Below, piece by piece: positions 3,148-29,437 of a DNA stretch of 64,000 nt; the stretch's first letter is position 1; each line of letters starts with the position of its first letter. The notes beneath the pieces were generated by a model that made no database searches, was not told the origin of the DNA, and saw only the letters and a program-made list of their open reading frames with translations. The stretch is from Geoalkalibacter subterraneus. Its GTDB lineage: Bacteria > Desulfobacterota > Desulfuromonadia > Desulfuromonadales > Geoalkalibacteraceae. A program made the position numbers and the translations under genes. Location: positions 3,245,001 through 3,309,000 of the forward strand of contig NZ_CP010311.1 in NCBI RefSeq assembly GCF_000827125.1. The letters run 5' to 3'.

Positions 3148-4512
3148 CTACTCCCCATGAAAAAACATTCGTCCCTTTGCCGTTAGAATATATTTCTGGT
3201 CGGCTGCACGGGGCTTTTCAGGGTTCGTCATTGCCACCAGCCCGGCTTCCAGCGCGGGCCGCAAATATTCACTCCTGAAATGTTCCCGGTGCTGCAAATG
3301 CAATATATTCTGCAGCTCACGACGAGTTCTAGGCCGATCCAGGACTTTCAAGAGACGTATGACTTGCTCGGTAACTTGCTCGGTAACTTGCTCGGTAACT
3401 TGCTCGGTGACTTGCTCGGTGACTTGCTCGGCAGCATGGCGTAACTCAACCTTGAAAAACTCGCCCATCTCTTCAACAGCAACAGCAAGACCTGGATAAT
3501 CCGCCAAGGCCTCTCTGATTCTCACAAAACCCGTGCCGTAGCGTTCGATGTCGCCAATCAGGTAGAACATTTCCGCCAGCAATCGGTTGCGCAAAGACGA
3601 GACATAATCATTCCGCTGCAGATCCTCGACACGCAAACGGCCGTACAGCTTGCCGGGATTGGAAATTGTAATTCGATCATCAAAAACCTTGATGATGATA
3701 TCCGACGGGCTCTTGTAATCACGGTGCACCACCGCGTTTAAAACCAGTTCGCGCAGCGCCTCCAGCGGATACTGCCAGCGTTCAATCCGTTCGCGACTTC
3801 CATTAAAGGAATAAGAAAGGTTGATATGTTTCTTGATAAAGGTCAGCGCCTCATCGACAGCGACAAACAACGGCGACTTGATAACGATGTCGTCGATGAT
3901 GGTCGCCTCTGATTTGAAACGGCCGATACGAATCGTGAAGTCAGGGTCGCCAAAGAGAAGGTTGCCGGCAATGGTGACTTTGCCGTCGCGGATGAGTTTA
4001 AGCTTAGCCAGGTTTGTAAACAAATCATCCTGGAGTGTCACCCGTCCTCGGCTGTTGACCCGCTCAAAAAAACGATTCAGCAAGGAAGGATCAAGGTCTG
4101 TCAAGGTTGCATGAGTGAGGCAAGCGTCATAGGAAACAGACAGTGACTGCTGCTGCAGATCCACGATCTCTTCCAGAGCCATGACGTGGTTGCTGTTATG
4201 CACCCTTCTGTAATAGCGATTTTTGTAGGAAACAGGCTTTATCGGGTATTCGCCAACCTCAAAAACAAGTACGGGCTTGCCTCCGCGCTTCTCGATCAGT
4301 ACTTTGGGGATCAACTGCGGGTAAGTGGCATTCTTGATTTCGTTGACATAGCGTTGAACGGTTTCCGGACCGATATCCACTCCACAGGGCTTTTCATCAT
4401 CCTCCATCCCGACAATGACCACACCACCATCGGTATTGGCGAATGCCACCAGCGACACGACAACCACTTTTCCGAAGCGCCGTTTGTATTCCGTTGTGAG
4501 GGACTCGGGCAT
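3148..4512 (-). CDS. AlbA_2/Schlafen-AAA_4 domain ATP-binding protein, second copy type
   Basis: 454-aa protein with the same layout as 443-1831: N-terminal AlbA_2 block (TTEYKRR, VAFANTDGGVVIVGM), central LRELVLNAVVHRDY and GTGFVRIREAL block, a linker of about six VTEQ units, and a C-terminal winged-helix-like region (RRELQNILHLQHREHF). The two proteins are clearly related but diverged, so this is not a recent duplication. The N-terminus starts close to the first conserved block, suggesting slight shortening. The presumed role is regulatory; ligand and target are unknown. A 177-bp piece of a near-identical gene lies at 17276-17452. Confidence 0.8.
   Translation of the reverse strand: MPESLTTEYKRRFGKVVVVSLVAFANTDGGVVIVGMEDDEKPCGVDIGPETVQRYVNEIKNATYPQLIPKVLIEKRGGKPVLVFEVGEYPIKPVSYKNRYYRRVHNSNHVMALEEIVDLQQQSLSVSYDACLTHATLTDLDPSLLNRFFERVNSRGRVTLQDDLFTNLAKLKLIRDGKVTIAGNLLFGDPDFTIRIGRFKSEATIIDDIVIKSPLFVAVDEALTFIKKHINLSYSFNGSRERIERWQYPLEALRELVLNAVVHRDYKSPSDIIIKVFDDRITISNPGKLYGRLRVEDLQRNDYVSSLRNRLLAEMFYLIGDIERYGTGFVRIREALADYPGLAVAVEEMGEFFKVELRHAAEQVTEQVTEQVTEQVTEQVTEQVIRLLKVLDRPRTRRELQNILHLQHREHFRSEYLRPALEAGLVAMTNPEKPRAADQKYILTAKGRMFFHGE
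3361..3432. repeat. 12-bp tandem repeat, six units, in the AlbA_2 linker
   Basis: Six units of (G/A)ACTTGCTCGGT/C run from 3361 to 3432 and encode the VTEQ repeats. They sit at the same domain boundary as the unrelated 12-bp array at 624-707. Confidence 0.92.
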
Positions 4513-4569
4513 AAATCAACCAAAAGTTGGCGAGAAAACATTGGTTTGAGCATCCGTTAGCCGGGAAAA

Positions 4570-5874
4570 CCTATCGCGGACTCAAAATATAGGATGTCGC
4601 ACAATGAAGCAAGTCCTTACAGGCTTTTCCGACGGATCAGGAGGCGCCAAGATTCAGCGCATCATACTACGGCGTGCATGGGCAACAACAAGTGACCGAT
4701 GGTGGGGGGAGAGCACGACGAAACGTTCCCGCGTAGGACACCACGAACAAACAGCTATGCAACGCGGCCGAACACAGATCGGGCTTGCCCGACACCACGC
4801 AGATACCGGCACTGTCGCTGCTCGGCCAGCGCGGTCAGATGTTGCGCAGTCCCCACGGCACTACCGAAACCGCTCAGAAATTGATCGGCGGTTGCGAAAA
4901 AGGTGTCAAAATCAATGTTCAGGCGCGAGAGGATGGCAGGAGTGGTTTCGGGGATAAAACCGCGCTTGGCGGGATGGACGGCGCGTCCGAGCGCATCGAC
5001 TAACTCCAGGTAGTCAGGCAAAGTAAAGGGAATGGCGCCGTCAACCTGGACCGACGGAGAAAAATCCAGCAACGGGGCCGGCTCAAGCTGGCGCAGTTCG
5101 CTTTCGGGACGGACGTGCTCTTGTCTGCGGCGCAGATCGGCGGCGGCTTTACGGACCTGCGCCGCAGGCGGCGTTCTTTTTTCCGCGGGGGAGGCCTCTT
5201 CTTCTGCCGTTTTAGGAAAAAGATCGGCAATGCGCCGGCGCACGGAGGTATGAGCGCTTTCTTCGGGCGTTTGCGCAAGTCCTGCGCGCACAGGGTTGAG
5301 ATCGACATACGCCATGGCGGTCAGCAAGGCTTGATCGTCAAGCAGCGCTTGACTTTTGAAGCGCCCCTCCCAAAACCGACCAGTCACCCCGTCTTCAGCA
5401 TTGGCCATGCGGGCAATGGTCTCATTGAGCACCCGCATAAACCAGGACAGGTCGTGAAGACGCTTGCGATAGGTCTCGGCCAGCGCAGCGATGTTTGACA
5501 ACTCTGTAGCGCTGAGGGTGTCGCGCTCAGTGCCCAAATATTTCTGAACCAGCCCAGGCCCGGAAAATATTCGAGTCCACCGCGCTAGAACCTCCTCATC
5601 GCCCCACCCCGCTGCGCGCTCGGCATCGATGCGCACAACAATATGGTAGTGATTGCTCATAACGGCGTAGGCCGCCACATCGATGGCGAAAATCGAGGAG
5701 AGTTCGCAAATGCGGCTCTCGATCCAGCCGCGGCGATGTTCAAAGTTCTTTCCAGAGGAATAATCTTCCCCACACAGGTACGCACGGCGCACACAACGCG
5801 AGACAACGTGGTACCACGGCGTGTCGGAGAGGCTCACAAGGTTTGATCGGGGCATTGTCATGAAAAGAACCCTA
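4570..5874. repeat. RAYT unit, copy 1
   Basis: This ~1.3-kb block, starting at CCTATCGCGGACTC and containing a complete transposase gene, is repeated at 7945-8002 joined to 14319-15572. Copy 1 is uninterrupted and gives the ancestral sequence of the insertion point (TTACAGGCTTTTCCGACGG) that is split in copy 2. Confidence 0.85.
4755..5861 (-). CDS. REP-associated tyrosine transposase (RAYT), copy 1
   Basis: Predicted 368-aa Y1-type (PF01797) single-strand endonuclease. The HUH motif is in VMSNHYHIVVRID; FWEGRFKSQALLDDQALL and YVDLNPVRAGL (probable catalytic Tyr) follow; the C-terminal ~130 residues are a charged extension. Members act on REP hairpins in trans and are usually domesticated single genes, though here two copies exist. 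The ATG at 5861 is preferred to a TTG at 5897, which lies in the REP leader. REP motifs lie immediately upstream (5887-5945) and elsewhere in the first 17 kb. The encoded protein matches copy 2 at 14453 apart from the leader. Confidence 0.88.
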   Translation of the reverse strand: MTMPRSNLVSLSDTPWYHVVSRCVRRAYLCGEDYSSGKNFEHRRGWIESRICELSSIFAIDVAAYAVMSNHYHIVVRIDAERAAGWGDEEVLARWTRIFSGPGLVQKYLGTERDTLSATELSNIAALAETYRKRLHDLSWFMRVLNETIARMANAEDGVTGRFWEGRFKSQALLDDQALLTAMAYVDLNPVRAGLAQTPEESAHTSVRRRIADLFPKTAEEEASPAEKRTPPAAQVRKAAADLRRRQEHVRPESELRQLEPAPLLDFSPSVQVDGAIPFTLPDYLELVDALGRAVHPAKRGFIPETTPAILSRLNIDFDTFFATADQFLSGFGSAVGTAQHLTALAEQRQCRYLRGVGQARSVFGRVA

Positions 5875-5886
5875 CTTGAGTTTAGG

Positions 5887-5945
5887 GGGAGTGTCAATCT
5901 TTAAGTGGGTGTCCTATAGATCTATAGGTGTCCTATAGATCTATA
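5887..5945. repeat. REP motif plus duplicated 19-bp unit
   Basis: GTGTCAATCTTTAAGTGGGT is followed by two tandem 19-bp units, GGTGTCCTATAGATCTATA (5908-5926 and 5927-5945), each with the palindrome TATAGATCTATA. It lies directly upstream of the RAYT gene and forms the breakpoint that truncates the neighbouring toxin gene. Confidence 0.8.
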
Positions 5946-5984
5946 AACAACCGAAAACACACCCCTACCCCCAAACCTCGTCAT
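5922..5984 (-). pseudogene. RelE/ParE-type toxin, truncated to 14 codons by REP sequence
   Basis: The frame begins MTRFGGRGVFSVVY, identical to the first 14 residues of the intact toxin at 16161-16457, then runs into REP sequence (RSIGHL) and stops. The remaining ~84 codons are gone, leaving the upstream antitoxin without a partner. Homology to the intact copy ends at 5944, exactly at the REP boundary. Confidence 0.8.
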
Positions 5985-6192
5985 GGCTCAGTGCTTCGCT
6001 GGGGTCGAAATCTTTTTCCCGCTCCGCAGCGAACTCTGCCAGCGCCCTGTCCTCACGCAGCTCGAGCGCTTCTTTCACCAGGTCGCGCATCAACATGGAC
6101 ATGGATACCCCTTCGTTTTCAGCCAGGTCATGAAGAGCGTTATAAACAGGTTTTTCCAAAACGACGTTGACTCTCGGATTTTTCGCGGGCAT
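5965..6192 (-). CDS. RHH-type antitoxin, orphan copy
   Basis: 75-aa protein (MPAKNPRVNVVLEKPVYNAL) with a short N-terminal beta strand and two helices typical of ribbon-helix-helix DNA-binding antitoxins, and an acidic C-terminal tail (EREKDFDPSEALSHDEVWG) that would wrap a RelE/ParE toxin. The ATG at 6192 has GGAGGT at proper spacing. The antitoxin of the pair at 16438-16665 lies in a duplicate of this block, and a diverged paralogue is at 56089. Its toxin is truncated at 5922-5984, so it can only act as repressor or as an antidote for the paralogous toxins. Confidence 0.8.
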   Translation of the reverse strand: MPAKNPRVNVVLEKPVYNALHDLAENEGVSMSMLMRDLVKEALELREDRALAEFAAEREKDFDPSEALSHDEVWG

Positions 6193-6474
6193 GTCGCACC
6201 TCCTTTTCACAAGTGTGTCACTAGTGCGGCATGAGGTCAATTGAAGATTGAAGGGGTGATCTCATCAGCCATTGCGAGTCCTTACTAGGCTGAAGGCTGA
6301 GGGCTGAAGGGAACCCCAGGTTCAAAATGTCTGCCCCCCATGGCGGCCACCAAACCCAAAGACGACACATGAAAATGCGAGTCGCACCTTTGACCTTCGC
6401 GCCCCTCGTCCCGAGTTTCGCGCCTCTCTGTCATCCCCCCGGAAAGTAAACGAGTAAACAACGTCCCCTGGGTC
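6143..6474. repeat. Repeat block B, copy 1 (antitoxin 5' end, leader and R1)
   Basis: The 332-bp segment recurs at 7611-7942 and, as part of a 531-bp match to 5944-6474, at 16417-16947. It covers the antitoxin start, its operator, a GC-rich stretch (CGCCCCTCGTCCCGAG) and an R1 motif at 6444-6474. The gene-free stretch 6193-6654 consists of this block, a partial REP at 6481-6505, and a short minus-strand frame ending in QSLDETLLTL that I cannot identify. Confidence 0.85.
6211..6226. promoter_or_regulatory. Putative antitoxin operator (CACTAGTG)
   Basis: The palindrome CACTAGTG (6219-6226) next to a CACTTGTG-like half (minus strand) lies 19-34 bp upstream of the antitoxin start. The same palindrome is kept upstream of the diverged paralogous module at 56032-56039, which supports an operator role for autorepression. 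Confidence 0.45.
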
Positions 6475-6654
6475 GGCCTTTAAGAATCTTTAAGTGGGTG
6501 TCCTATAGTGTCAAAAGAGTCTCATCCAGAGATTGACTGGCGCGGCCCTGCAAATGCGTTGAAAATGATTCCACAACATCCCAAAGGTAATATCGCTGGG
6601 CACGCCGGAGAATTCCTTGAATAACAATGGCCAGGCTGAGGGCCTCCTCGCAGT

Positions 6655-6948
6655 TTAATAACCCGCTTCTTTCTGATGCCTGAATGCCAGCACATAAACA
6701 ACATCTGCGAGGTTATCGTAACGATAGAGCGCAACATACCCGGAATCACCAAATTCGATGAGCAACTCGCGTAAATCGAGGTCATCACCGAGCGGGCGGC
6801 CGATTTCAGGCTGTGAGATCAGCAGATCAAAGCGCTCGCGTATGGCAAGGGCGGCATGCGTCACAGCTTCGGGTGATTTGTTCATCAAGAAGCGCCGACA
6901 CCGCTTTAATCCTCGGGCAGCACCCTCTGTGATAACTACTCGTGGCAA
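6655..6948 (-). CDS. parE: ParE-type toxin
   Basis: 97-aa RelE/ParE-superfamily protein: MPRVVITEGAARGLKRCRRF, then LLISQPEIGRPLGDDLDLRELLIEFGDSGYVALYRY and the C-terminal VVYVLAFRHQKEAGY, the classic 'FRHQKE' ending of ParE. ParE toxins inhibit gyrase or cleave mRNA depending on subfamily; which applies here is unknown. It overlaps the antitoxin gene by 13 bp, as expected for a two-gene operon. Confidence 0.85.
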   Translation of the reverse strand: MPRVVITEGAARGLKRCRRFLMNKSPEAVTHAALAIRERFDLLISQPEIGRPLGDDLDLRELLIEFGDSGYVALYRYDNLADVVYVLAFRHQKEAGY

Positions 6949-7208
6949 TCAGGCAGCTCCGTTTCGTCTTCCGATCCCCAACGGCCCAACCAATCGCGCA
7001 CCTCATCGCCGGTCAGGTGGCGACCGGTTTCCTGATAAGCACTCCAGGACGCATAAGCCTCCTGCTTAAAGCTCTCGCGCGCCTCTTCCCGCGCCACATA
7101 CTGCTCGATGGCCTCACGCATAATCCAGTGAGATGATCGGCGACGGCGCTGCGCAAGGGAACGTATCCGCGCCCTGAGGTCATCATCAATCTTTATAGAG
7201 GTCGCCAT
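6936..7208 (-). CDS. CopG/RHH antitoxin of ParE pair
   Basis: 90-aa protein beginning MATSIKIDDDLRARIRSLAQ, followed by SSHWIMREAIEQYVAREE, the beta-helix-helix form of CopG-type antitoxins; the C-terminal part would bind ParE. The ATG at 7208 with GGGAGAG upstream is chosen over a start 18 bp earlier. A palindrome 26 bp upstream is a likely autorepression operator. The first 18 codons are duplicated at 15884-15938. Confidence 0.85.
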   Translation of the reverse strand: MATSIKIDDDLRARIRSLAQRRRRSSHWIMREAIEQYVAREEARESFKQEAYASWSAYQETGRHLTGDEVRDWLGRWGSEDETELPDCHE

Positions 7209-7233
7209 GATTCTCTCCCTTATCAAGAAGTAA

Positions 7234-7250
7234 TACCTTTTGATAAGGTA
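7234..7250. promoter_or_regulatory. Putative operator of the CopG/ParE module
   Basis: TACCTT and AAGGTA form an inverted repeat with a 5-bp spacer (TACCTTTTGATAAGGTA) 26 bp upstream of the antitoxin start. Position and symmetry suit binding by the encoded RHH dimer. A duplicate lies at 15964-15980. Confidence 0.5.
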
Positions 7251-7311
7251 ACATTATCCTCGACTTGAGTCGATCGCTATTCTCAAATTGAAGCTCGCCC
7301 CCACATAGCTT

Positions 7312-7398
7312 TCAACTCTTCCCCTCCACCACCCTCCTCAACCCCTCATCCACACTCACCGGCCACCCCAGAACCTCGCGCGCCTTGGAAATATCCAC
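7312..7398 (-). pseudogene. NAD-dependent sugar epimerase/dehydratase, C-terminal remnant
   Basis: Twenty-eight codons read VDISKAREVLGWPVSVDEGL then RRVVEGKS and a stop. This matches the conserved C-terminal helix of extended SDR sugar epimerases (DxSKAxxxLGWxPxxxxxEGL). It is cut at its 5' side by an R1-like repeat. An identical remnant is at 16042-16128. It hints that a polysaccharide gene once flanked this site. Confidence 0.6.
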
Positions 7399-7427
7399 CG
7401 AGCAAACAACGTCCCTTGGATCTTCCA

Positions 7428-7524
7428 AGGTTTGATCGGGGCATTGTCATGAAAAGAACCCTACTTGAGTTTAAAGGGAGTGTCAATCTTTAAGTGGGTG
7501 TCCTTTAGAGTCGCATTTAGAGTC
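7428..7524. repeat. RAYT leader fragment with REP
   Basis: The sequence repeats the RAYT start region (GTTTGATCGGGGCATTGTCA ... AACCCTACTTGAG) followed by GTGTCAATCTTTAAGTGGGT and AGAGTCGCA repeats. It is a solo copy of the DNA just upstream of the RAYT gene, separated from the coding region. A similar piece is at 15809-15883. Confidence 0.7.
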
Positions 7525-7529
7525 GCAGA

Positions 7530-7604
7530 CAACCTGTTTAATGCCTTAAAGGGTGAGCCTCATTCACCCCGGGAAGTAAACGAGTAAACAACGTCCCCTG
7601 GGTC
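7530..7604. repeat. Repeat block D, partial copy 2, with R1
   Basis: Contains CCTGTTTAATGCCTTAAAGG, the GGGTGA/TCACCC hairpin and the R1 motif at 7574-7604, as in 308-424 and 15697-15807. Confidence 0.7.
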
Positions 7605-7610
7605 TTCCTG

Positions 7611-7942
7611 TAAACAGGTTTTTCCAAAACGACGTTGACTCTCGGATTTTTCGCGGGCATGTCGCACCTCCTTTTCACAAGTGTGTCACTAGTGCGGCAT
7701 GAGGTCAATTGAAGATTGAAGGGGTGATCTCATCAGCCATTGCGAGTCCTTACCAGGCTGAAGGCTGAGGGCTGAAGGGAACCCCAGGTTCAAAATGTCT
7801 GCCCCCCATGGCGGCCACCAAACCCAAAGACGACACATGAAAATGCGAGTCGCACCTTTGACCTTCGCGCCCCTCGTCCCGAGTTTCGCGCCTCTCTGTC
7901 ATCCCCCCGGAAAGTAAACGAGTAAACAACGTCCCCTGGGTC
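7611..7942. repeat. Repeat block B, copy 2 (carries only the first codons of the antitoxin)
   Basis: Matches 6143-6474. It carries about 16 codons of the RHH antitoxin (minus strand, 7611-7660) plus its ribosome site and operator, so a promoter may still fire into truncated DNA. It ends in R1 at 7912-7942. Together with block C, block D and the RAYT leader it fills 7209-7996, which holds no intact gene. Confidence 0.85.
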
Positions 7943-7996
7943 TTCCTATCGCGGACTCAAAATATAGGATGTCGCACAATGAAGCAAGTCCTTACA

Positions 7997-8006
7997 GGCT
8001 TTCTGG
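7997..8006. repeat. 10-bp target duplication, left copy
   Basis: GGCTTTCTGG here is repeated at 11865-11874 on the far side of the tandem IS pair. The first six bases come from the RAYT unit and the last four are the left tip of the IS4-like element, so the ISAs1-type insertion struck the junction of an already inserted element. Confidence 0.85.
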
Positions 8007-8021
8007 CAAGGCAAATTTGTT

Positions 8022-8849
8022 CTAATTGCATCCAGCAGCCGAGCGCCTGCTCCTTGTATTATCGGTCATTCGCAGGTAGTCGAAGACGGCGCGGGGGTTC
8101 ATGGCGAGCATCCTCATTTTCTGCGCAACGCTGCCGACGCTTTTTGATTTAATCAGACCGACCGCGAAGCGTCGGAGCCGGGTGATGTTTTCCGGCCCAT
8201 GGCCGGTGCGTATCCGGCTTCGGTCTTCGTCGTAATTCCAGTCAATGATGTAGTGGCAGCTGTTTTCTATGCACCAGTGGTTGCGATTAGTCTTGAGGAT
8301 GCGCTGGGCGTCGGCCTGCTGCGGTGTGTGGCTGGTGATTCCGTAAACGGTTTCGGTTGAGACTTTCCCGCTCTTTTTGTTGACCCTTTCGCGTTCGACC
8401 ATGAAAGCCTGACCGACGTGAGGAAAGTCGAGATAGTCGTTGAGCTCGGCGGTGACCCAGATCCTCCGCGTCTCGATCCGGCCATGGTCGGAGTCGACGG
8501 TGACAGCGTGAGGTTCTTGGCGGCCATGAAAATACAGGGTGAGGTCTTCGAGAAGCCGGGGCTGATTGCCTTTGACGGTGAAATGGTAATGGGCCTGCCT
8601 GTCTTCGACCAGGTAGCGGGCCAATCGGCGTTGCGTCAATAGGGCGTCGGCGCTGATGGTCTTGCCTTCGATGCTGATCGCCTCGAGCAAGGGGATGGCC
8701 ATTTTGATTTCGTTCGTTTGCTTGACCTCGTCGCTGCCATCGTCTATCGGCAGGAGGCCGACTTTTTTTGGGTGTGGCAGGTTTTGGTCTCGTGGCCGAT
8801 CGCGCTCATGATATGCGTCTTGCGGCCTTGCTCGTCGGTGGCGTTGCAC
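8022..8849 (-). CDS. ISAs1 transposase catalytic part (orfB, -1 frame), copy 1
   Basis: The functional part starts after the slippery run near 8762 (KKVGLLPIDDGSDEVKQTNE). The second catalytic Asp is in ISADALLTQRRLARYLVE; the third acidic residue is in HWCIENSCHYIIDWNYDEDR; the GHGPENITRLRRFAVGLIKS ending is typical of ISAs1. The stop codon lies at the edge of the left terminal repeat. On its own this frame lacks the first Asp and the DruA domain, so the expected active product is the orfA-orfB fusion of about 600 residues. Confidence 0.85.
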   Translation of the reverse strand: MQRHRRARPQDAYHERDRPRDQNLPHPKKVGLLPIDDGSDEVKQTNEIKMAIPLLEAISIEGKTISADALLTQRRLARYLVEDRQAHYHFTVKGNQPRLLEDLTLYFHGRQEPHAVTVDSDHGRIETRRIWVTAELNDYLDFPHVGQAFMVERERVNKKSGKVSTETVYGITSHTPQQADAQRILKTNRNHWCIENSCHYIIDWNYDEDRSRIRTGHGPENITRLRRFAVGLIKSKSVGSVAQKMRMLAMNPRAVFDYLRMTDNTRSRRSAAGCN

Positions 8850-9811
8850 ATGGTCTTGCCGTCAATGGCGAGGCTTTCATCCGCGCCTGCGTAAGCCTCG
8901 TTCCAACGTTGAAAGCTGCGGTCGAGATGATCCGGATCGACCCTGATGAGGATATCGCGGATGATGTATTCGCTCGGGACAAGGTACTGCCCTTGTTTTT
9001 TACGGCATCCGAAGCGCTCGCGCGCCTTGGGGCCAAGACTTTTGGCCCAATCGGAAATCGCCTTGTACCCGCGCATCCCGCAAAGCGTCGCCCCGGCGGC
9101 AATGGCCAAAACGGTGGACAGCCGGTGGCGTTTCCCTGCGGCGCGGCGCGGGTCGGGGATGTCGGTGAAAAACTCTGGCAAGGATCGCATTTGATTGGCT
9201 GTCAACAACATTTTCACGTCTCCTGGACAATAGGGCGCCCCAAGCAGGGGGCGGGACAAGAGCGATTGGGCATTGGACTGCAGCGCACGAACAAACACCA
9301 TCTTCGGGGACTGTGCGAGGTTGCTATAACCTTGACGGGTTCGGCGAAATCCCTTGGTCTGACCCAGGCATAGCCAATTGGCCGCCTTGTAAACCGTGCC
9401 TTGATAGCGCTGCGGATCGACAAAGGTCTCCATCAGCACAAGCGGATGGCCAAAGCGCTCCAGCCAGTCGCGCTGGATTCTTTGTTCGCACAGCGCCAAG
9501 ACGCGCGAGCCCAGATTGGGCAAATGCCACTGCGGCAGGATCAGAAAACGGCTATTGTTGGCAACCAGCTTCAAGCGGTCATATTGGCGCCGATGATCCC
9601 AGCCAATCCACTGGTCGCGAACGGCGCACTTCAAGGCCGCAGCGGAAAAGCTCAGCAAAGCGACCCACTGCTGGCGCAATATGGCAACGTACCAGAGGGT
9701 TTCGCCGATCTTGGGCAGATCTCCCAGATAATGATGCGCTTGCATTGTCTCCCGATATCGGTCCTCCTCGAGGGCTGAAACGGGTCGTACATGGATTTCT
9801 TTCAGATTCAC
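8744..9811 (-). CDS. DruA/DUF4338 domain joined to ISAs1 transposase N-terminus (orfA), copy 1
   Basis: 355 aa from a GTG at 9811. Residues ~20-200 match DUF4338, the domain of Druantia protein DruA: HYLGDLPKIGETLWYVAIL, LLSFSAAALKCAVRD, LKLVANNSRFLILP, LMETFVDPQRYQGTVYKAAN. Residues ~210-340 are the N-terminal region of ISAs1-family transposases (LPEFFTDIPDPRRAAGKRH) up to the first catalytic Asp in LAIDGKT (~317). The frame ends 12 residues later in QKKSASCR. The rest of the catalytic domain is in the -1 frame, reached at A_AAA_AAG (8768-8762). The reading frame extends to 9943 only because of the neighbouring copy. Confidence 0.85.
   Translation of the reverse strand: MNLKEIHVRPVSALEEDRYRETMQAHHYLGDLPKIGETLWYVAILRQQWVALLSFSAAALKCAVRDQWIGWDHRRQYDRLKLVANNSRFLILPQWHLPNLGSRVLALCEQRIQRDWLERFGHPLVLMETFVDPQRYQGTVYKAANWLCLGQTKGFRRTRQGYSNLAQSPKMVFVRALQSNAQSLLSRPLLGAPYCPGDVKMLLTANQMRSLPEFFTDIPDPRRAAGKRHRLSTVLAIAAGATLCGMRGYKAISDWAKSLGPKARERFGCRKKQGQYLVPSEYIIRDILIRVDPDHLDRSFQRWNEAYAGADESLAIDGKTMCNATDEQGRKTHIMSAIGHETKTCHTQKKSASCR
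8762..8768 (-). promoter_or_regulatory. Probable -1 ribosomal frameshift site A_AAA_AAG
   Basis: Read on the minus strand in the orfA frame, the codons are CAA AAA AAG, the canonical slippery heptamer. Slipping back one base gives AAA AAA GTC GGC, which is the orfB frame. A short stem TCGGC/GCCGA begins right after it. Both IS copies keep it. No ribosome site for independent orfB start was seen. Confidence 0.7.
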
Positions 9812-9955
9812 GACAGGGTCTCCAAGGGCAAAGGACGAACCCTTTATACCCCATCGGAGAACAAATGACCAGAACTTTATGCTGGGGCAAGGCTTAGAGC
9901 GTGTTCCCGGGAGGGAACAAATTCGCCCTGGCCCTGATTGCAAGGCAAATTTGTT

Positions 9956-10783
9956 CTAATTGCATCCAGCAGCCGAGCGCCTGCTCCTTGTATTATCGGT
10001 CATTCGCAGGTAGTCGAAGACGGCGCGGGGGTTCATGGCGAGCATCCTCATTTTCTGCGCAACGCTGCCGACGCTTTTTGATTTAATCAGACCGACCGCG
10101 AAGCGTCGGAGCCGGGTGATGTTTTCCGGCCCATGGCCGGTGCGTATCCGGCTTCGGTCTTCGTCGTAATTCCAGTCAATGATGTAGTGGCAGCTGTTTT
10201 CTATGCACCAGTGGTTGCGATTAGTCTTGAGGATGCGCTGGGCGTCGGCCTGCTGCGGTGTGTGGCTGGTGATTCCGTAAACGGTTTCGGTTGAGACTTT
10301 CCCGCTCTTTTTGTTGACCCTTTCGCGTTCGACCATGAAAGCCTGACCGACGTGAGGAAAGTCGAGATAGTCGTTGAGCTCGGCGGTGACCCAGATCCTC
10401 CGCGTCTCGATCCGGCCATGGTCGGAGTCGACGGTGACAGCGTGAGGTTCTTGGCGGCCATGAAAATACAGGGTGAGGTCTTCGAGAAGCCGGGGCTGAT
10501 TGCCTTTGACGGTGAAATGGTAATGGGCCTGCCTGTCTTCGACCAGGTAGCGGGCCAATCGGCGTTGCGTCAATAGGGCGTCGGCGCTGATGGTCTTGCC
10601 TTCGATGCTGATCGCCTCGAGCAAGGGGATGGCCATTTTGATTTCGTTCGTTTGCTTGACCTCGTCGCTGCCATCGTCTATCGGCAGGAGGCCGACTTTT
10701 TTTGGGTGTGGCAGGTTTTGGTCTCGTGGCCGATCGCGCTCATGATATGCGTCTTGCGGCCTTGCTCGTCGGTGGCGTTGCAC
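9956..10783 (-). CDS. ISAs1 transposase catalytic part (orfB, -1 frame), copy 2
   Basis: Same sequence as 8022-8849, including ISADALLTQRR and CIENSCHYIIDW catalytic blocks. It is expected to be made only as a -1 frameshift fusion with the orfA at 10678-11745. Confidence 0.85.
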   Translation of the reverse strand: MQRHRRARPQDAYHERDRPRDQNLPHPKKVGLLPIDDGSDEVKQTNEIKMAIPLLEAISIEGKTISADALLTQRRLARYLVEDRQAHYHFTVKGNQPRLLEDLTLYFHGRQEPHAVTVDSDHGRIETRRIWVTAELNDYLDFPHVGQAFMVERERVNKKSGKVSTETVYGITSHTPQQADAQRILKTNRNHWCIENSCHYIIDWNYDEDRSRIRTGHGPENITRLRRFAVGLIKSKSVGSVAQKMRMLAMNPRAVFDYLRMTDNTRSRRSAAGCN

Positions 10784-11745
10784 ATGGTCTTGCCGTCGAT
10801 GGCGAGGCTTTCATCCGCGCCTGCGTAAGCCTCGTTCCAACGTTGAAAGCTGCGGTCGAGATGATCCGGATCGACCCTGATGAGGATATCGCGGATGATG
10901 TATTCGCTCGGGACAAGGTACTGCCCTTGTTTTTTACGGCATCCGAAGCGCTCGCGCGCCTTGGGGCCAAGACTTTTGGCCCAATCGGAAATCGCCTTGT
11001 ACCCGCGCATCCCGCAAAGCGTCGCCCCGGCGGCAATGGCCAAAACGGTGGACAGCCGGTGGCGTTTCCCTGCGGCGCGGCGCGGGTCGGGGATGTCGGT
11101 GAAAAACTCTGGCAAGGATCGCATTTGATTGGCTGTCAACAACATTTTCACGTCTCCTGGACAATAGGGCGCCCCAAGCAGGGGGCGGGACAAGAGCGAT
11201 TGGGCATTGGACTGCAGCGCACGAACAAACACCATCTTCGGGGACTGTGCGAGGTTGCTATAACCTTGACGGGTTCGGCGAAATCCCTTGGTCTGACCCA
11301 GGCATAGCCAATTGGCCGCCTTGTAAACCGTGCCTTGATAGCGCTGCGGATCGACAAAGGTCTCCATCAGCACAAGCGGATGGCCAAAGCGCTCCAGCCA
11401 GTCGCGCTGGATTCTTTGTTCGCACAGCGCCAAGACGCGCGAGCCCAGATTGGGCAAATGCCACTGCGGCAGGATCAAAAAACGGCTATTGTTGGCAACC
11501 AGCTTCAAGCGGTCATATTGGCGCCGATGATCCCAGCCAATCCACTGGTCGCGAACGGCGCACTTCAAGGCCGCAGCGGAAAAGCTCAGCAAAGCGACCC
11601 ACTGCTGGCGCAATATGGCAACGTACCAGAGGGTTTCGCCGATCTTGGGCAGATCTCCCAGATAATGATGCGCTTGCATTGTCTCCCGATATCGGTCCTC
11701 CTCGAGGGCTGAAACGGGTCGTACATGGATTTCTTTCAGATTCAC
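10678..11745 (-). CDS. DruA/DUF4338 domain joined to ISAs1 transposase N-terminus (orfA), copy 2
   Basis: 355 aa, identical in protein sequence to copy 1. It begins at GTG 11745 (MNLKEIHVRPVSALEEDRYR). Here nothing extends the frame upstream, which supports this start for both copies. The DruA-like region, the first catalytic Asp (LAIDGKT) and the early stop after QKKSASCR are the same. The two base differences seen between the copies (8868 versus 10799 region; 9556 versus 11490 region) do not alter the layout. Confidence 0.85.
   Translation of the reverse strand: MNLKEIHVRPVSALEEDRYRETMQAHHYLGDLPKIGETLWYVAILRQQWVALLSFSAAALKCAVRDQWIGWDHRRQYDRLKLVANNSRFLILPQWHLPNLGSRVLALCEQRIQRDWLERFGHPLVLMETFVDPQRYQGTVYKAANWLCLGQTKGFRRTRQGYSNLAQSPKMVFVRALQSNAQSLLSRPLLGAPYCPGDVKMLLTANQMRSLPEFFTDIPDPRRAAGKRHRLSTVLAIAAGATLCGMRGYKAISDWAKSLGPKARERFGCRKKQGQYLVPSEYIIRDILIRVDPDHLDRSFQRWNEAYAGADESLAIDGKTMCNATDEQGRKTHIMSAIGHETKTCHTQKKSASCR
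10696..10702 (-). promoter_or_regulatory. Probable -1 ribosomal frameshift site, copy 2
   Basis: The same A_AAA_AAG heptamer as at 8762-8768, in the same phase relative to orfA, followed by the TCGGC/GCCGA stem. Confidence 0.7.
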
Positions 11746-11870
11746 GACAGGGTCTCCAAGGGCAAAGGACGAACCCTTTATACCCCATCGGAGAACAAAT
11801 GACCAGAACTTTATGCTGGGGCAAGGCTTAGAGCGTGTTCCCGGGAGGGAACAAATTCGCCCTGGGCTTT

Positions 11871-14318
11871 CTGGATATTCGACAAACCGAGTGAGCCGGA
11901 ACAGCCACGGCCCGAATCACACCATTTGACAGCGTTGTGTGGGCTTGAGCAGGGCACACCCCGGACAAAGTAGGGTTGTATCGATCCGGAATATCGGAGG
12001 GAGCTTGGAGGCGCCGGCTGGCCTGGCTTGCGAAATGCAACGGGCGGCGCCTTGCGGCTGTCTGCGTGGGGGCACTGAGACGATCGAGCCAAAAAGGGAA
12101 TGCAGGGATGGGGCGATGGAAGTGGGGTGGCTGGCGGATTGGGACTATTCCTTAATCGCCCCGTACTTGCGCAGGATATCCGTTGTGGTTATGCTCTCCG
12201 GCACTCCTCGCGGTCTGACCACCGTTCTGCCGCAGAGAATGACGAGCTCATAGACCTCGAAGATGGCATAGCGCCCCTCGTCGAAGACAATGACCTTGTT
12301 GCCGTTGTCTTGACGGACCTGCTGCCGGTACTTGCGGATGCCGGTTTGCTCCCCGGCGCGCTCTTTTTTGTCCTGCTGCTCCAGCCAGGTGCGAAACGCC
12401 GTGGAGAGCGCCATGGTGAGCAGGGTGAGGTAGACATGAGCCCGAAACGCCCTGGCGGTATTCTTTGCCGGCCGCTCGATGAACCATGCCTGCTTCGCCT
12501 CCCGGAACAGGGCGTTCTCCATCTCGCTTCTGCGGTCGTAGCGATCGTAGGCACAAAGCGGCTTGGCGACCGCAGCGTTGGTGAGAATCACCATGGTGTC
12601 GCAACCGGGGTTGTTTCGGCAGTAGGGATCATCCACGACCACCACCGCGTTGATCGGATTGGCCGAGAAGTTTGCGGCATGTTCGTGGGAGCCGCTGCCG
12701 TGCTCGCCATAGAAGCCGGCCGAGGTGAGTCCGTCGATCCCGACCGCCTCCCAGCGATCGACCACGCTGGTCTTGTTCTTGCCGTGCCCGACCGAGCGGG
12801 TCTTCTGCCGGCTCTGGCGGACCCCGTTTGCAGCGCAGGCCAGGGCATCGGCATAGACCGCCATGTTCTTCTTGGCCGGGACATAGAAGTGGATCCCCTG
12901 CTGGTGCAGCCACCACCAGAAGGCGCCATCGGTAAACCCCCGGTCAAAGGCCAGCGACGACAAGGTGGCCTGCCCGCCGAGATTGCTCAGAGCCTGGGCG
13001 ACCACCTCCCGGGCCAGGGTCACATCGGCGGTCTCGATGGTGGCAAAGCGCAGGGCCAGCGGCAAGCCGCTGACCGGCTCCCAGATCACCCAGATCTTGA
13101 ACCCGAAGACCCGTTCCAGCACCTTCTTGATGCGCCCCTTGCGCAGGCGCAGCGTCGGCGGCTTCTCCTTGGAGACCATGCCGCAGCCCTCACAGCGCTG
13201 AGTCGACTGGATTTCCGAAGCATCGAGTGTCGCATGCACGGTCTTGGGAAAGAACGAACGAGCGGCCAGCACCGCCACCACCGTGTTGAAGAGCCTCTCC
13301 AGCGCGGAAGCCGCAATCGCTTGGATGTAGGTGGCAATCGAATCGGCGCAGACCGGGCCACGGATCGGGCTGCCCGGCTCGCTCTGTCCGGAGCCGTCCG
13401 GGCTATCGGCAGCCTCCGGGGAGGTCTCGGCGGTGGGCTTTTTACGCCCCCGCAGGCTCGTCCCCTCCAGAATCTCCCGGCCGTTGAACCCCACCAGGCG
13501 CATCAATGCCTGCGAGTGCAGAACCACCGGTTCGATGTGCCAATAGAACGCCAGGCCCGCGACGATGCGCATCAGATAGATGAGGATGACCGCAGGAAAG
13601 CGGACGGTCGTCGGGCGGCTGGAGACTTTCGGGTCAAGCTCCAGCAGGCGAGGCATGACCCCGATCTCTTCGAGGAAATAGAAGAACTCGTCGAAGAAGC
13701 CGGCGTCACTGAGGTGATAAACCTCCGGCACGTCCTTACCCGCCGCCAGATCCAGGGCAATGCCGGCCTGGTCTTTGGCGGCGGTCTGAAAGGAGAGTCG
13801 ACGGGCGATATTTCTGGAAGCACGGTCGTGTAGGTTCATGGTTGGAACGCTAGCAGAAAATGGCGCGAAAAGCAAATCGGCAACATGCGTAAGTGGTTGT
13901 TTTTAAAAGATAAAACTGCTTCGAAATTCATGATCTGAGCGGTTTTTGGGCGAAACGCGCGAGGGGGATCGTGCGAGGCATCCAGGAGGGCCTACAGGGG
14001 AGCCCGGGGGTCGAGAAGGGCAATCCTGAAGGGCGCGGCGAAGAAGGCAAATTTTCGAAAAATGGCCCCTTCCCGGCCCGGTGTTGGATTTTTTTTTTGG
14101 ATTCTGGTTGTCCGCTTACTCAAACGTGGATTAGGCAGACCGGGATAAGGCGTCAGCCGCCCCAGGCATGCTACGAGGTTTGCTGCTGGGTCGGGTTGCC
14201 GGAAACGCTTCGCTTATTCCGGCCTAAATTCCTGGAGCCGTGTAAATAACCAGTTTGGATTTTGTGTGCCGCTCTGGTTGAGCCAGTCCAGGGGCGGGCG
14301 AGTTTATCGAATATCCAG
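11871..14318 (-). mobile_element. IS4-superfamily insertion sequence (2448 bp)
   Basis: Imperfect ~18-bp inverted ends: CTGGATATTCGACAAACC (left) and CTGGATATTCGATAAACT (right, complement). Comparison with the intact RAYT unit at 4570-5874 shows it inserted at AGGCTTT, duplicated at 7996-8002 and 14319-14325 (7 bp). The ISAs1 pair later separated the left duplication from the element. 11871-12144 and 13840-14318 are non-coding ends. A 7-bp duplication and the YREK signature suit the IS4 family; the exact subgroup is not settled. Confidence 0.85.
12145..13839 (-). CDS. IS4-superfamily DDE transposase
   Basis: 564 aa from ATG 13839 (MNLHDRASRNIARRLSFQ). A first Asp lies in VHATLDASEIQST, a second in SSLAFDRGFTDGAFWWWL, and the Y-(2)-R-(3)-E-(6)-K signature is in YDRRSEMENALFREAKQAWF followed by FRAHVYLTLLTMALSTAF. 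An in-frame TTG 36 bp earlier is possible but has no better ribosome site. The paired CxxC (QRCEGCGMV) after the first Asp is a further visible feature. No frameshift or stop is seen, so the element may be active. Confidence 0.88.
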   Translation of the reverse strand: MNLHDRASRNIARRLSFQTAAKDQAGIALDLAAGKDVPEVYHLSDAGFFDEFFYFLEEIGVMPRLLELDPKVSSRPTTVRFPAVILIYLMRIVAGLAFYWHIEPVVLHSQALMRLVGFNGREILEGTSLRGRKKPTAETSPEAADSPDGSGQSEPGSPIRGPVCADSIATYIQAIAASALERLFNTVVAVLAARSFFPKTVHATLDASEIQSTQRCEGCGMVSKEKPPTLRLRKGRIKKVLERVFGFKIWVIWEPVSGLPLALRFATIETADVTLAREVVAQALSNLGGQATLSSLAFDRGFTDGAFWWWLHQQGIHFYVPAKKNMAVYADALACAANGVRQSRQKTRSVGHGKNKTSVVDRWEAVGIDGLTSAGFYGEHGSGSHEHAANFSANPINAVVVVDDPYCRNNPGCDTMVILTNAAVAKPLCAYDRYDRRSEMENALFREAKQAWFIERPAKNTARAFRAHVYLTLLTMALSTAFRTWLEQQDKKERAGEQTGIRKYRQQVRQDNGNKVIVFDEGRYAIFEVYELVILCGRTVVRPRGVPESITTTDILRKYGAIKE

Positions 14319-14452
14319 AGGCTTTTCCGACGGATCAGGAGGCGCCAAGATTCAGCGCATCATACTACGGCGTGCATGGGCAACAACAAGTGACCGATGG
14401 TGGGGGGAGAGCACGACGAAACGTTCCCGCGTAGGACACCACGAACAAACAG

Positions 14453-15559
14453 CTATGCAACGCGGCCGAACACAGATCGGGCTTGCCCGACACCACGCAG
14501 ATACCGGCACTGTCGCTGCTCGGCCAGCGCGGTCAGATGTTGCGCAGTCCCCACGGCACTACCGAAACCGCTCAGAAATTGATCGGCGGTTGCGAAAAAG
14601 GTGTCAAAATCAATGTTCAGGCGCGAGAGGATGGCAGGAGTGGTTTCGGGGATAAAACCGCGCTTGGCGGGATGGACGGCGCGTCCGAGCGCATCGACTA
14701 ACTCCAGGTAGTCAGGCAAAGTAAAGGGAATGGCGCCGTCAACCTGGACCGACGGAGAAAAATCCAGCAACGGGGCCGGCTCAAGCTGGCGCAGTTCGCT
14801 TTCGGGACGGACGTGCTCTTGTCTGCGGCGCAGATCGGCGGCGGCTTTACGGACCTGCGCCGCAGGCGGCGTTCTTTTTTCCGCGGGGGAGGCCTCTTCT
14901 TCTGCCGTTTTAGGAAAAAGATCGGCAATGCGCCGGCGCACGGAGGTATGAGCGCTTTCTTCGGGCGTTTGCGCAAGTCCTGCGCGCACAGGGTTGAGAT
15001 CGACATACGCCATGGCGGTCAGCAAGGCTTGATCGTCAAGCAGCGCTTGACTTTTGAAGCGCCCCTCCCAAAACCGACCAGTCACCCCGTCTTCAGCATT
15101 GGCCATGCGGGCAATGGTCTCATTGAGCACCCGCATAAACCAGGACAGGTCGTGAAGACGCTTGCGATAGGTCTCGGCCAGCGCAGCGATGTTTGACAAC
15201 TCTGTAGCGCTGAGGGTGTCGCGCTCAGTGCCCAAATATTTCTGAACCAGCCCAGGCCCGGAAAATATTCGAGTCCACCGCGCTAGAACCTCCTCATCGC
15301 CCCACCCCGCTGCGCGCTCGGCATCGATGCGCACAACAATATGGTAGTGATTGCTCATAACGGCGTAGGCCGCCACATCGATGGCGAAAATCGAGGAGAG
15401 TTCGCAAATGCGGCTCTCGATCCAGCCGCGGCGATGTTCAAAGTTCTTTCCAGAGGAATAATCTTCCCCACACAGGTACGCACGGCGCACACAACGCGAG
15501 ACAACGTGGTACCACGGCGTGTCGGAGAGGCTCACAAGGTTTGATCGGGGCATTGTCAT
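14453..15559 (-). CDS. REP-associated tyrosine transposase (RAYT), copy 2
   Basis: Protein identical to the 4755-5861 gene through the coding region from MTMPRSNLVSLSDTPWYHVV onward, including the HUH motif (NHYHIVVRID) and YVDLNPVRAGL. The upstream leader differs from copy 1 by loss of about 9 bp next to the REP. The gene itself is intact; only the DNA downstream of it was split by insertion sequences. Near identity indicates recent duplication of the whole unit, unusual for RAYT genes, which are normally single and vertically inherited. Confidence 0.88.
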   Translation of the reverse strand: MTMPRSNLVSLSDTPWYHVVSRCVRRAYLCGEDYSSGKNFEHRRGWIESRICELSSIFAIDVAAYAVMSNHYHIVVRIDAERAAGWGDEEVLARWTRIFSGPGLVQKYLGTERDTLSATELSNIAALAETYRKRLHDLSWFMRVLNETIARMANAEDGVTGRFWEGRFKSQALLDDQALLTAMAYVDLNPVRAGLAQTPEESAHTSVRRRIADLFPKTAEEEASPAEKRTPPAAQVRKAAADLRRRQEHVRPESELRQLEPAPLLDFSPSVQVDGAIPFTLPDYLELVDALGRAVHPAKRGFIPETTPAILSRLNIDFDTFFATADQFLSGFGSAVGTAQHLTALAEQRQCRYLRGVGQARSVFGRVA

Positions 15560-15573
15560 GAAAAGAACCCTAC

Positions 15574-15693
15574 TTGGGAGTGTCAATCTTTAAGTGGGTG
15601 TCCTATAGAGTCGCATAGGGGGAGTGTCAATCTTTAAGTGGGTGTCATTTAGAGTCGCCATTAAAATCTTTAAGTGGGTGTCCTATAGATCCG
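15574..15693. repeat. Cluster of three REP motifs
   Basis: GTGTCAATCTTTAAGTGGGT occurs twice and a shortened form (AATCTTTAAGTGGGTGTCC) once, in direct orientation, spaced by AGAGTCGC-type linkers. It is the densest REP cluster in the window and sits directly upstream of RAYT copy 2. Confidence 0.85.
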
Positions 15694-15696
15694 CTG

Positions 15697-15807
15697 AATA
15701 ACACTGGCCAGACAGTGGACCGAAGATTTGGACAACCTGTTTAATGCCTTAAAGGGTGAGCCTCATTCACCCCGGGAAGTAAACGAGTAAACAACGTCCC
15801 CAGGGTC
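15697..15807. repeat. Repeat block D, copy 3, with R1
   Basis: CTGAATAACACTGGCCAGAC through the GGGTGA/TCACCC hairpin to R1 (15777-15807), nearly the same as 308-424. Confidence 0.75.
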
Positions 15808-15808
15808 T

Positions 15809-15883
15809 TCGTTGTCATGAAAAGAACCCTACTTGAGTTTAGGGGGAGTGTCAATCTTTAAGTGGGTGTCCTTTCAATCTTTA
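15809..15883. repeat. RAYT leader fragment with REP, second solo copy
   Basis: CGTTGTCATGAAAAGAACCC, then the REP motif, ending abruptly in TTTCAATCTTTA at the start of block C. It carries the RAYT start codon context without the gene. Confidence 0.7.
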
Positions 15884-16155
15884 CAAGGGAACGTATCCGC
15901 GCCCTGAGGTCATCATCAATCTTTATAGAGGTCGCCATGATTCTCTCCCTTATCAAGAAGTAATACCTTTTGATAAGGTAACATTATCCTCGACTTGAGT
16001 CGATCGCTATTCTCAAATTGAAGCTCGCCCCCACATAGCTTTCAACTCTTCCCCTCCACCACCCTCCTCAACCCCTCATCCACACTCACCGGCCACCCCA
16101 GAACCTCGCGCGCCTTGGAAATATCCACCGAGCAAACAACGTCCCTTGGATCTTC
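15884..16155. repeat. Repeat block C, copy 2 (antitoxin 5' fragment and epimerase remnant)
   Basis: Duplicate of 7154-7425. It contains the first 18 codons of the CopG antitoxin (15884-15938, minus strand), its operator (15964-15980) and the epimerase C-terminal remnant (16042-16128). No toxin is present, so it is a dead module with an intact promoter region. With the REP and D blocks it accounts for 15560-16160. Confidence 0.85.
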
Positions 16156-16160
16156 TCTAA

Positions 16161-16457
16161 TCACTGGCGCTTTTCCATCAAAGGATAGACTTCCTTGCGG
16201 TGGCAGATGCCGAGGATAAGAATTTCGTCTCCCTCAACTTTGAACACGATCCGGTAATCCCCAACCCTGAGCTCCCAGTAGCCCCTAAGGGTTTTTCGCA
16301 GGGGTTCGCCATACTCCTGTGGAGCCACCATGAGGCGGGCCTCAACAGCCTTCCTTATGCGCTGGCGTATATCACCATTCAGCTTGGGAATATCGCGGGC
16401 CTTCACCTGGGGGTGGTAAACAACCGAAAACACACCCCTACCCCCAAACCTCGTCAT
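16161..16457 (-). CDS. RelE/ParE-type toxin, intact
   Basis: 98-aa RelE-superfamily protein: FSVVYHPQVKARDIPKLNGD, then RIRKAVEARLMVAPQEYGEP, GYWELRVGDYRIVFKV and ILGICHRKEVYPLMEKR. The strand-rich C-terminal half with YRIVFKV and HRKEVY is typical of RelE-type mRNA interferases. It overlaps its antitoxin by 20 bp. Paralogues are a 14-codon remnant at 5922-5984 and an intact diverged copy at 56297-56593. Confidence 0.88.
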   Translation of the reverse strand: MTRFGGRGVFSVVYHPQVKARDIPKLNGDIRQRIRKAVEARLMVAPQEYGEPLRKTLRGYWELRVGDYRIVFKVEGDEILILGICHRKEVYPLMEKRQ

Positions 16458-16947
16458 GGCTCAGTGCTTCGCTGGGGTCGAAATCTTTTTCCCGCTCCGC
16501 AGCGAACTCTGCCAGCGCCCTGTCCTCACGCAGCTCGAGCGCTTCTTTCACCAGGTCGCGCATCAACATGGACATGGATACCCCTTCGTTTTCAGCCAGG
16601 TCATGAAGAGCGTTATAAACAGGTTTTTCCAAAACGACGTTGACTCTCGGATTTTTCGCGGGCATGTCGCACCTCCTTTTCACAAGTGTGTCACTAGTGC
16701 GGCATGAGGTCAATTGAAGATTGAAGGGGTGATCTCATCAGCCATTGCGAGTCCTTACCAGGCTGAAGGCTGAGGGCTGAAGGGAACCCCAGGTTCAAAA
16801 TGTCTGCCCCCCATGGCGGCCACCAAACCCAAAGACGACACATGAAAATGCGAGTCGCACCTTTGACCTTCGCGCCCCTCGTCCCGAGTTTCGCGCCTCT
16901 CTGTCATCCCCCCGGAAAGTAAACGAGTAAACAACGTCCCCTGGGTC
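16417..16947. repeat. Repeat block B, copy 3
   Basis: 531 bp matching 5944-6474, ending in R1 at 16917-16947. A further R1 copy follows at 16956-16986. Together these fill the non-coding stretch 16666-16984. Confidence 0.85.
16438..16665 (-). CDS. RHH-type antitoxin of the RelE pair
   Basis: 75 aa from ATG 16665 behind GGAGGT. It is the same protein as the orphan at 5965-6192 (MPAKNPRVNVVLEKPVYNAL ... EALSHDEVWG). The CACTAGTG palindrome lies upstream. Here the partner toxin is complete, so this is the working member of the recent duplicate pair. Its protein could also neutralise or repress the other copies in the window. Confidence 0.88.
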   Translation of the reverse strand: MPAKNPRVNVVLEKPVYNALHDLAENEGVSMSMLMRDLVKEALELREDRALAEFAAEREKDFDPSEALSHDEVWG

Positions 16948-16984
16948 GTCCCGGAAAGTAAACGAGTAAACAACGTCCCCGGGG

Positions 16985-17269
16985 TCTGACAAATTTATGG
17001 ATGACTGGTGCAAGCGAACCATGCGCTCGCGGATCGATCCGATGAAGAAGGTCGCCCGGATGCTGCGCTCTCACCGGGGCCTGATTCTCAACTATTTCCG
17101 GGCCAAAGAGCAGATTGCCTTGGGTGCCGTGGAGGGTCTCAACAACAAGGCGAAAGTGACCACGAAAAAAGCCTACGGTTTCAAAAGCTTTGAAGTCATA
17201 AAACTTGCGCTATATCATACACTTGGTGACCTGCCTGAACCTGTGGTCACCCATAGATTCTGCGGGTGA
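16985..17269 (+). pseudogene. ISL3-family transposase, C-terminal fragment
   Basis: About 94 codons ending FMDDWCKRTMRSRIDPMKKV, NYFRAKEQIALGAVEGLNNK, KAYGFKSFEVIKLALYHTLG. This is the conserved end of ISL3 transposases, with the catalytic Glu in VEGLNNK. The 5' portion is missing and the fragment abuts an R1 repeat on the left and an AlbA_2 fragment on the right. Confidence 0.85.
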
Positions 17270-17275
17270 ACCAAT

Positions 17276-17452
17276 AAACGATTCAGCAAGGAAGGATCAA
17301 GGTCTGCCAAGGTTGTATGAGAGAGGCAATCGTCATAGGAAACAGACAGTGACTGCTGCTGCAGATCCACGATCTCTTCCAGAGCCATGACGTGGTTGCT
17401 GTTATGCACCCTTCTATAATAGCGATTTTTGTATCAAACAGGCTTTACCGGG
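17276..17452 (-). pseudogene. AlbA_2-protein gene, internal fragment
   Basis: 177 bp nearly identical to 4070-4246 inside the AlbA_2 gene, encoding VHNSNHVMALEEIVDLQQQS and SLSVSYDDCLSHTTLADLDP. It lacks start, ATPase part and stop. It overlaps the last bases of the glycosyltransferase gene, marking the edge of the accessory mosaic against the polysaccharide cluster. Confidence 0.85.
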
Positions 17453-28686: not shown

Positions 28687-28742
28687 TCAACAATACTCCA
28701 AAAAGTTCGGCAAAGATCAGGGAGGTTGTTTGCTCGTGTGTT

Positions 28743-28773
28743 ATTATACGACGCTAACACGCCAATTCTTCAA
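28743..28773 (-). promoter_or_regulatory. Possible promoter of the O-antigen operon
   Basis: On the minus strand a perfect TATAAT (28748-28743) lies about 57 bp upstream of wbpB, with TTGAAG 19 bp further upstream. The -10 is strong but the spacer is long, so this is tentative. Confidence 0.35.
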
Positions 28774-28984
28774 CACTATTAACGAAACCAACATTTTATG
28801 TAATTCAACCAATTTTGTCTATCGGGAAATCTTAAACCCTCGGGACGCGGGACGAGGGATGAGGGACGCGGAAACCTTAAAACCCTGGGGCGCGGTGCGC
28901 GGGATTCGGGTCGCGAGGATCTTAAAGTTTTTGACTTTCTCGCCCCTCGTCCCGCGTTCCGCGTTCCGCGTCCCTTCGCCTCAA
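28774..28984. repeat. Dispersed repeats: block E and GGGACGCGGGACGAGG hairpin
   Basis: Starts with AACGAAACCAACATTTTATG ... CTATCGGGAAATCTTAAACC, a block also seen at 33350-33420 and 38065-38130. Then GGGACGCGGGACGAGGGATG is mirrored ~100 bp later by CTCGTCCCGCGTTCCGCGTC, an imperfect long hairpin. Related sequence occurs at 33421-33505, 39236-39302, 40549-40590 and 40999-41120. Confidence 0.75.
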
Positions 28985-29267: not shown

Positions 29268-29437
29268 TCAGGGCTTTTCCAGAAAACAACTGATTTTATC
29301 ATAAATTGCTTTTACAGCTTGCCGATACCGCGCGATGTCGCTCGGCAAAGGCCGGCCATGAGGCAACAGGCCGAAGTCCGAGGGGTAGCGGGCTTCAAGG
29401 TAAACCGTACTCAATTCGCCAAGAACGTCCTCATCAC
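29268..29437 (-). pseudogene. HEPN-domain gene, C-terminal remnant 1
   Basis: The last ~56 codons (DEDVLGELSTVYLEARYPSD ... KAIYDKISCFLEKP) are nearly the same as the intact HEPN gene at 34712-35107. Upstream the sequence switches to an unrelated repeat, so the HEPN catalytic region is missing. Confidence 0.85.

Follow-up and report, generated by a model that had tools for sequence, protein, structure and literature searches.

An ISAs1-family insertion sequence of Geoalkalibacter subterraneus with an N-terminal DruA domain and a transposase gene very probably expressed by programmed -1 frameshifting

The window analysed here is the whole 64,000-nucleotide stretch of the Geoalkalibacter subterraneus chromosome from 3,245,001 to 3,309,000 (NZ_CP010311.1, forward strand), and all positions below are those of the window unless stated otherwise. 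At 8007-9930 it carries a complete ISAs1-family insertion sequence of 1,924 bp with imperfect terminal inverted repeats of 16 bp, followed by a second copy of the same element in tandem. The features are as follows.

7997-8006 and 11865-11874, no strand: left and right target-site duplication GGCTTTCTGG, 10 bp, flanking the tandem pair
8007-9930, minus strand: ISAs1-family insertion sequence, copy 1, exact ends from comparing 10 genomic copies
8007-8022, plus strand: terminal inverted repeat CAAGGCAAATTTGTTC, at the end opposite the transposase start (genomic copy comparison)
9915-9930, minus strand: terminal inverted repeat CAGGGCGAATTTGTTC, read from outside, on the transposase start side (genomic copy comparison)
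8744-9811, minus strand: ORF A, frame 0, 355 aa, with a GTG start at 9811, GGAG upstream and a TAG stop at 8744-8746 (ORF and copy analysis)
9248-9811, minus strand: predicted GNAT/Mom-like domain, residues ~1-188 (structure prediction and structural comparison)
9347-9781, minus strand: match to Pfam DruA (DUF4338), 88.2 bits
8903-9175, minus strand: DDE_Tnp_1_assoc domain (Pfam, 72.9 bits)
8762-8768, minus strand: slippery heptamer A_AAA_AAG of copy 1, conserved in 54 of 57 relatives
8712-8761, minus strand: strong hairpin directly 3' of the copy-1 heptamer, -16.3 kcal/mol in 50 nt, not shared by relatives (folding)
8022-8762, minus strand: ORF B, -1 frame, the remaining DDE domain with D389 and E516 of the joined 596-aa protein (profile split and joined match)
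9931-9940, no strand: spacer GCCCTGATTG, 10 bp, between the tandem copies (genomic copy comparison)
9941-11864, minus strand: copy 2, with ORF A at 10678-11745, heptamer at 10696-10702 and ORF B at 9956-10696 (copy comparison)

Copy 2 differs from copy 1 at two positions, both synonymous. The complete genome (strain Red1; assembly of 3,717,645 bases, chromosome of 3,475,523 bases) contains ten near-identical copies at eight sites, seven of which show target duplications of 9-10 bp. A second dimer (G000:C1:685814-689672) has the same 10-bp spacer within other flanking duplications, and the recurrence of this spacer at two sites indicates that the dimer has transposed as one composite unit. Among the ten copies there are six variable sites; five of these are synonymous in the joined reading, as are all three differences in the -1 frame downstream of the shift. 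The best explanation is an active element, and copies carrying the heptamer have moved recently. A promoter scan around the gene start found none. Direct repeats of 60-300 bp are scattered in large number over 28700-41100 and 4000-17500 (families D1, D2 and D7 among them).

ISAs1 elements are described as having terminal inverted repeats, target duplications of 8-10 bp and, usually, a single transposase ORF. The present element agrees with the family in its match to profile NF033564, in inverted repeats starting with CAGGG/CAAGG and in its 9-10 bp target duplications, but it differs in its N-terminal DruA/Mom-like domain and in a coding region of two overlapping frames that need a -1 shift to be joined, whereas the DruA-less ISAs1-type matches that were met are mostly single open frames of ~370-430 aa. 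The two-frame layout thus marks a variant subgroup of ISAs1 and does not exclude the element from the family. Frame 0 encodes the DruA domain and the start of the transposase, with a stop shortly past a run of A residues, and the -1 frame supplies the remaining 246 aa. A preliminary description, made from the letters alone, had proposed DruA/DUF4338 signatures fused to an ISAs1 DDE transposase whose catalytic domain is completed only by slipping at A_AAA_AAG, and these points have held: the peptides it quoted lie in the minus-strand frame, and ORF A matches Pfam DruA (PF14236, formerly DUF4338) far above the cut-off of 27 bits. The NCBIfam ISAs1 profile (NF033564) breaks exactly at the shift: frame 0 alone covers its positions 1-116 (48 bits) and the -1 frame alone its positions 119-313 (146 bits), while the joined protein scores 195.4 bits over the whole length (cut-off 70). 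The putative catalytic residues D317, D389 and E516 were invariant in the first four relatives compared, and we take them, by position and family knowledge, to be the DDE triad.

The A run reads C-AAAAAAA-G, phased CAA AAA AAG, in each of the ten genomic copies, the two of the window among them. A scan of genome contigs yielded 80 relatives, and 57 non-redundant sequences including that of the window, most of which share 56-83% identity with the window protein. Their hosts comprise Desulfobacterota, beta- and gammaproteobacteria, Nitrospirota, Acidobacteriota and others, although many are metagenome bins and some host labels may be wrong. In 54 of the 57, A_AAA_AAG stands in phase and is followed by the -1 frame, a count of sequences that share ancestry and not of independent events; the exceptions are two sequences with A8 and a single open frame (L072, L084) and one decayed copy with A6. 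Two further relatives that appeared to be in frame proved to be alignment effects: L093 shifts normally, and in L073 the heptamer is intact and a separate indel lies upstream. Constraint extends to the nucleotide level: the two slip codons, AAA and AAG, never vary across 52 usable sequences (52/52 each), while a near-invariant Lys codon nearby, used for comparison, is AAG in 31 and AAA in 17. Immediately before the slip codons, 50 of the 52 have the Gln codon CAA, and the other two have CCA or CGA with the heptamer whole. The frame-0 stop lies 0 or 5 codons past the site in 52 of the 57. The five-codon stop is created by a -1-frame Val codon; GTA encodes this Val in 39 of 45 cases, compared with 19 of the 297 Val codons downstream (Fisher p 1.5e-30, to be read as descriptive since the sequences share kinship), and sequences without this stop tend to carry the immediate one (p 0.002). 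Given the constraint on heptamer and codons together with the conserved stops, both the slip and early termination look selected. Further genomes hold more copies with the same arrangement of heptamer and break. Simple folding of the 57 relatives gave no conserved downstream hairpin or other stimulator; the foldings differ and are mostly near random. Structures of this kind often accompany programmed -1 sites but are not required there.

We regard programmed -1 ribosomal frameshifting at A_AAA_AAG as very probably the way in which this transposase is made, judging from the sequence comparisons. The preliminary description had set a programmed shift against a mutation, and the relatives, in keeping the run and the break, decide for the former. 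The mutational account would make the element a pseudogene with a simple one-base indel, spread in trans by an intact copy. One extra A does restore a single frame, as in the two relatives with A8 that read through, but the complete host genome, in which ten copies moved, contains no in-frame copy able to help in trans, and the same break in 54 of 57 relatives, the codon-level constraint at the site and the retained frame-0 stops make this reading extremely improbable. Sequencing error is also unlikely to have caused the break, since the Red1 genome is a long-read assembly with short-read correction (PMC4357744); mutation and sequencing error were therefore both rejected on the grounds of conservation and a polished genome. 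Transcriptional slippage on the A run is the other way in which the joined protein could arise. Poly-A runs serve both mechanisms, some transposase families use the transcriptional one (PMC3711429, PMC5009743), and seven A residues could allow a certain amount of it. However, breaks at the heptamer site among the relatives are only of the -1 type and never +1, which by the criterion of PMC3711429 favours ribosomal slippage; the heptamer is also held in codon phase, and two relatives with just six A still keep the pattern X_XXY_YYZ. Transcriptional slippage is accordingly judged quite unlikely.

For ribosomal frameshifting, we infer a slip on the ribosome at an efficiency that would leave most ribosomes to stop within a few codons, giving a 355-aa protein with the Mom-like GNAT domain, DDE_Tnp_1_assoc and, of the catalytic residues, the first Asp alone. 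The slipping minority would produce the 596-aa DruA-DDE transposase with D317, D389 and E516. The predicted junction of the joined protein reads QKK|VGLLPID, and the short one would end in SASCR. The short product, which would be abundant and would have neither D389 nor E516, is likely to bind or modify DNA and may regulate transposition as an inhibitor, by analogy with IS1 and IS3; the rare long product would be the active transposase, carrying the same DruA domain. In IS1 and IS3 elements, A_AAA_AAG and A_AAA_AAA together account for 72% of the heptamers (PMC4066793). With the OrfA/OrfAB arrangement of those families the present element shares the heptamer class, a short upstream product and a transframe full transposase (PMC5009743, PMC4066793), but the transposase families are unrelated, the upstream product here includes a GNAT-like domain, and a conserved stimulatory structure was not found. 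A review names IS1, IS3, IS5 and IS630 as frameshifting families and ISAs1 is absent there (PMC5009743); a search of the searchable papers at the level of titles and search hits found no link between ISAs1 and programmed frameshifting, and the small unnamed DDE_Tnp_1 clusters of the -1 type in PMC3711429 could include the DruA-ISAs1 group. ISAs1 appears to join these four families, with an unusually broad conservation at the nucleotide level.

The N-terminal domain belongs to a family that one survey terms a GNAT domain (PMC10853773). ORF A, searched as a sequence against solved structures, gave no match. An AlphaFold model based on 45 native sequences (mean pLDDT 78, unreliable after residue 310) predicts a GNAT-like N-terminal domain, and its top structural match is the phage Mu protein Mom (8bv8; Foldseek E 4e-8). 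Alignment with VIA-align gave Z 15.4 and 3.4 A over 169 residues for Mom, the next GNAT protein reaching Z 13.0. The signals from sequence are weak: a profile-only hhalign comparison of the DruA domain with Mom gave a probability of 7.9% (E 0.0044), Pfam Mom scored 16.5 bits against ORF A, under its cut-off, and PHROGs gave a weak Mom-like match. For this reason the link to Mom rests mainly on predicted structure and a short motif. This motif, N..S(R) ... F(V/A)D ... G.VY.A.N(W/F)...G, is common to both, and the profile alignment pairs N-x-x-S-R, F-V/A-D and G-x-V-Y-x-A-x-N. S102 aligns with the Ser that is replaced in the inactive Mom mutant 8bv8, and a Ser of this type occurs in all transposase-linked and solo DruAs of the tree set. 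Conservation is high at S102 (43/45), D132 (44/45), Y141 (45/45) and N145 (45/45). A Mom-like fold is therefore probable on the predicted model, and homology to Mom is likely. Mom, which modifies adenine, matches the DruA domain in predicted fold and also carries the motif, with the Ser that, when mutated, leaves Mom inactive, but identity is 16% and Mom stands alone, whereas the DruA domain is fused to a transposase. Phage proteins of ~230 aa on viral contigs (L153-L168) are related to DruA and match weakly to PHROG 1384, 'Mom-like DNA modification protein'.

The preliminary description had offered a DNA-binding role shared between the transposon domain and the defence protein. The analysis gave no indication of such a role, and a predicted GNAT fold closest to Mom suggests a domain that modifies bases, or formerly did so, rather than one that plainly binds DNA. 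A base-modifying role is put forward tentatively, with somewhat less than even expectation: the domain may modify bases in or close to the transposon, much as Mom modifies phage DNA. That the domain is a mere DNA-binding or end-recognition module, any enzyme activity having been lost, is conceivable to a fair extent, if short of an even chance, because DruA is positioned as DNA-binding domains commonly are, either N-terminal to transposases or encoded ahead of them, in five kinds of transposases, and no enzyme activity of it is known; against such a module stand the predicted fold, which best matches a DNA-modifying enzyme, and the conservation of S102, D132, Y141 and N145. PacBio base-modification data have been deposited for Geoalkalibacter subterraneus strain Red1 (SRX808316, PMC4357744).

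DruA is not confined to ISAs1. The same genome has a Tn5/IS4-like transposase with DruA at its N-terminus, both in one open frame of 812 aa (L026:2416-4851), and fusions also occur with transposases matching DDE_5, which we read as IS701-type. Ahead of IS66 transposases it forms a separate first gene, a layout seen in 8 of the 10 neighbours that were scanned. A 301-aa solo DruA gene precedes an unclassified DDE transposase of the DDE_Tnp_1_assoc type in a 2,775-bp element (L028:2970-5744) with perfect 17-bp terminal inverted repeats and seven copies in its own genome, three of them in tandem in L027. At half of 30 short solo DruA loci a simple search found a co-oriented transposase, and the DruA part comes first in nearly all DruA-transposase arrangements. 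A search of titles and search hits in the searchable papers found no literature linking DUF4338 to transposons. DruA/DUF4338 looks like a general transposon accessory. A broader proposal, which we consider possible but doubtful, is that this Mom-like GNAT family serves at least five kinds of DDE transposons by modifying bases of the transposon, donor or target, either in transposition or for protection of the element, and that in the present ISAs1 subgroup the programmed frameshift fixes the ratio of this domain to the transposase. The presence of a Mom-like domain on several unrelated transposases raises the question of base modification in bacterial transposition.

The relation to the Druantia defence protein of the same name is distant. 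A set of five Druantia proteins matching PADLOC DruA1 strongly forms one clade (support 99/95) with long branches in an unrooted tree, outside all transposase-linked DruAs and adjoining a phage group. These proteins have Gly in place of the Mom-type Ser and are without the ETFVD/GxxYxAxNW motif. In turn, a PADLOC scan of the window proteins, DruA models included, gave no match, to ORF A or otherwise, and the two groups have Pfam PF14236 in common. The preliminary description had suggested that the defence protein descends from transposons. The shared Pfam family and the far greater number of transposon-linked members in the genomes sampled speak for such descent, but the tree is unrooted, the Druantia proteins lie beside the phage group as a separate long-branch clade and are not nested among transposase-linked DruAs, and key motif residues differ; we consider it unlikely. 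Of that description, then, the fusion and the programmed shift stand, and the evolutionary inference does not. Many proteins with the Pfam name 'DruA' are parts of transposons, and the label can mislead surveys of defence systems.

A second DruA-ISAs1 subgroup, about 40% identical, is represented by copies in Thiodictyon (L060) and in the genome G102 (L066). It lacks the slip-site insert; a +1-type break occurs instead near residue 430, in a T/C run at a homologous place. This break falls at a TTTCCCCC-type run (L060:3760-3800, on a Thiodictyon syntrophicum plasmid, and L066:1975-2000), and at least nine identical Thiodictyon copies all have it. It is possibly a second recoding site, a lead drawn from two lineages only. 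In a search of plasmids the DruA part was matched only in this subgroup, in Thiodictyon. One genome, Candidatus Accumulibacter ACC003 (G398), contains 125 DruA/ISAs1-related matches, among them dozens of solo DruA copies with a frame of 286 aa and ~20 or more frameshifted ISAs1 copies.
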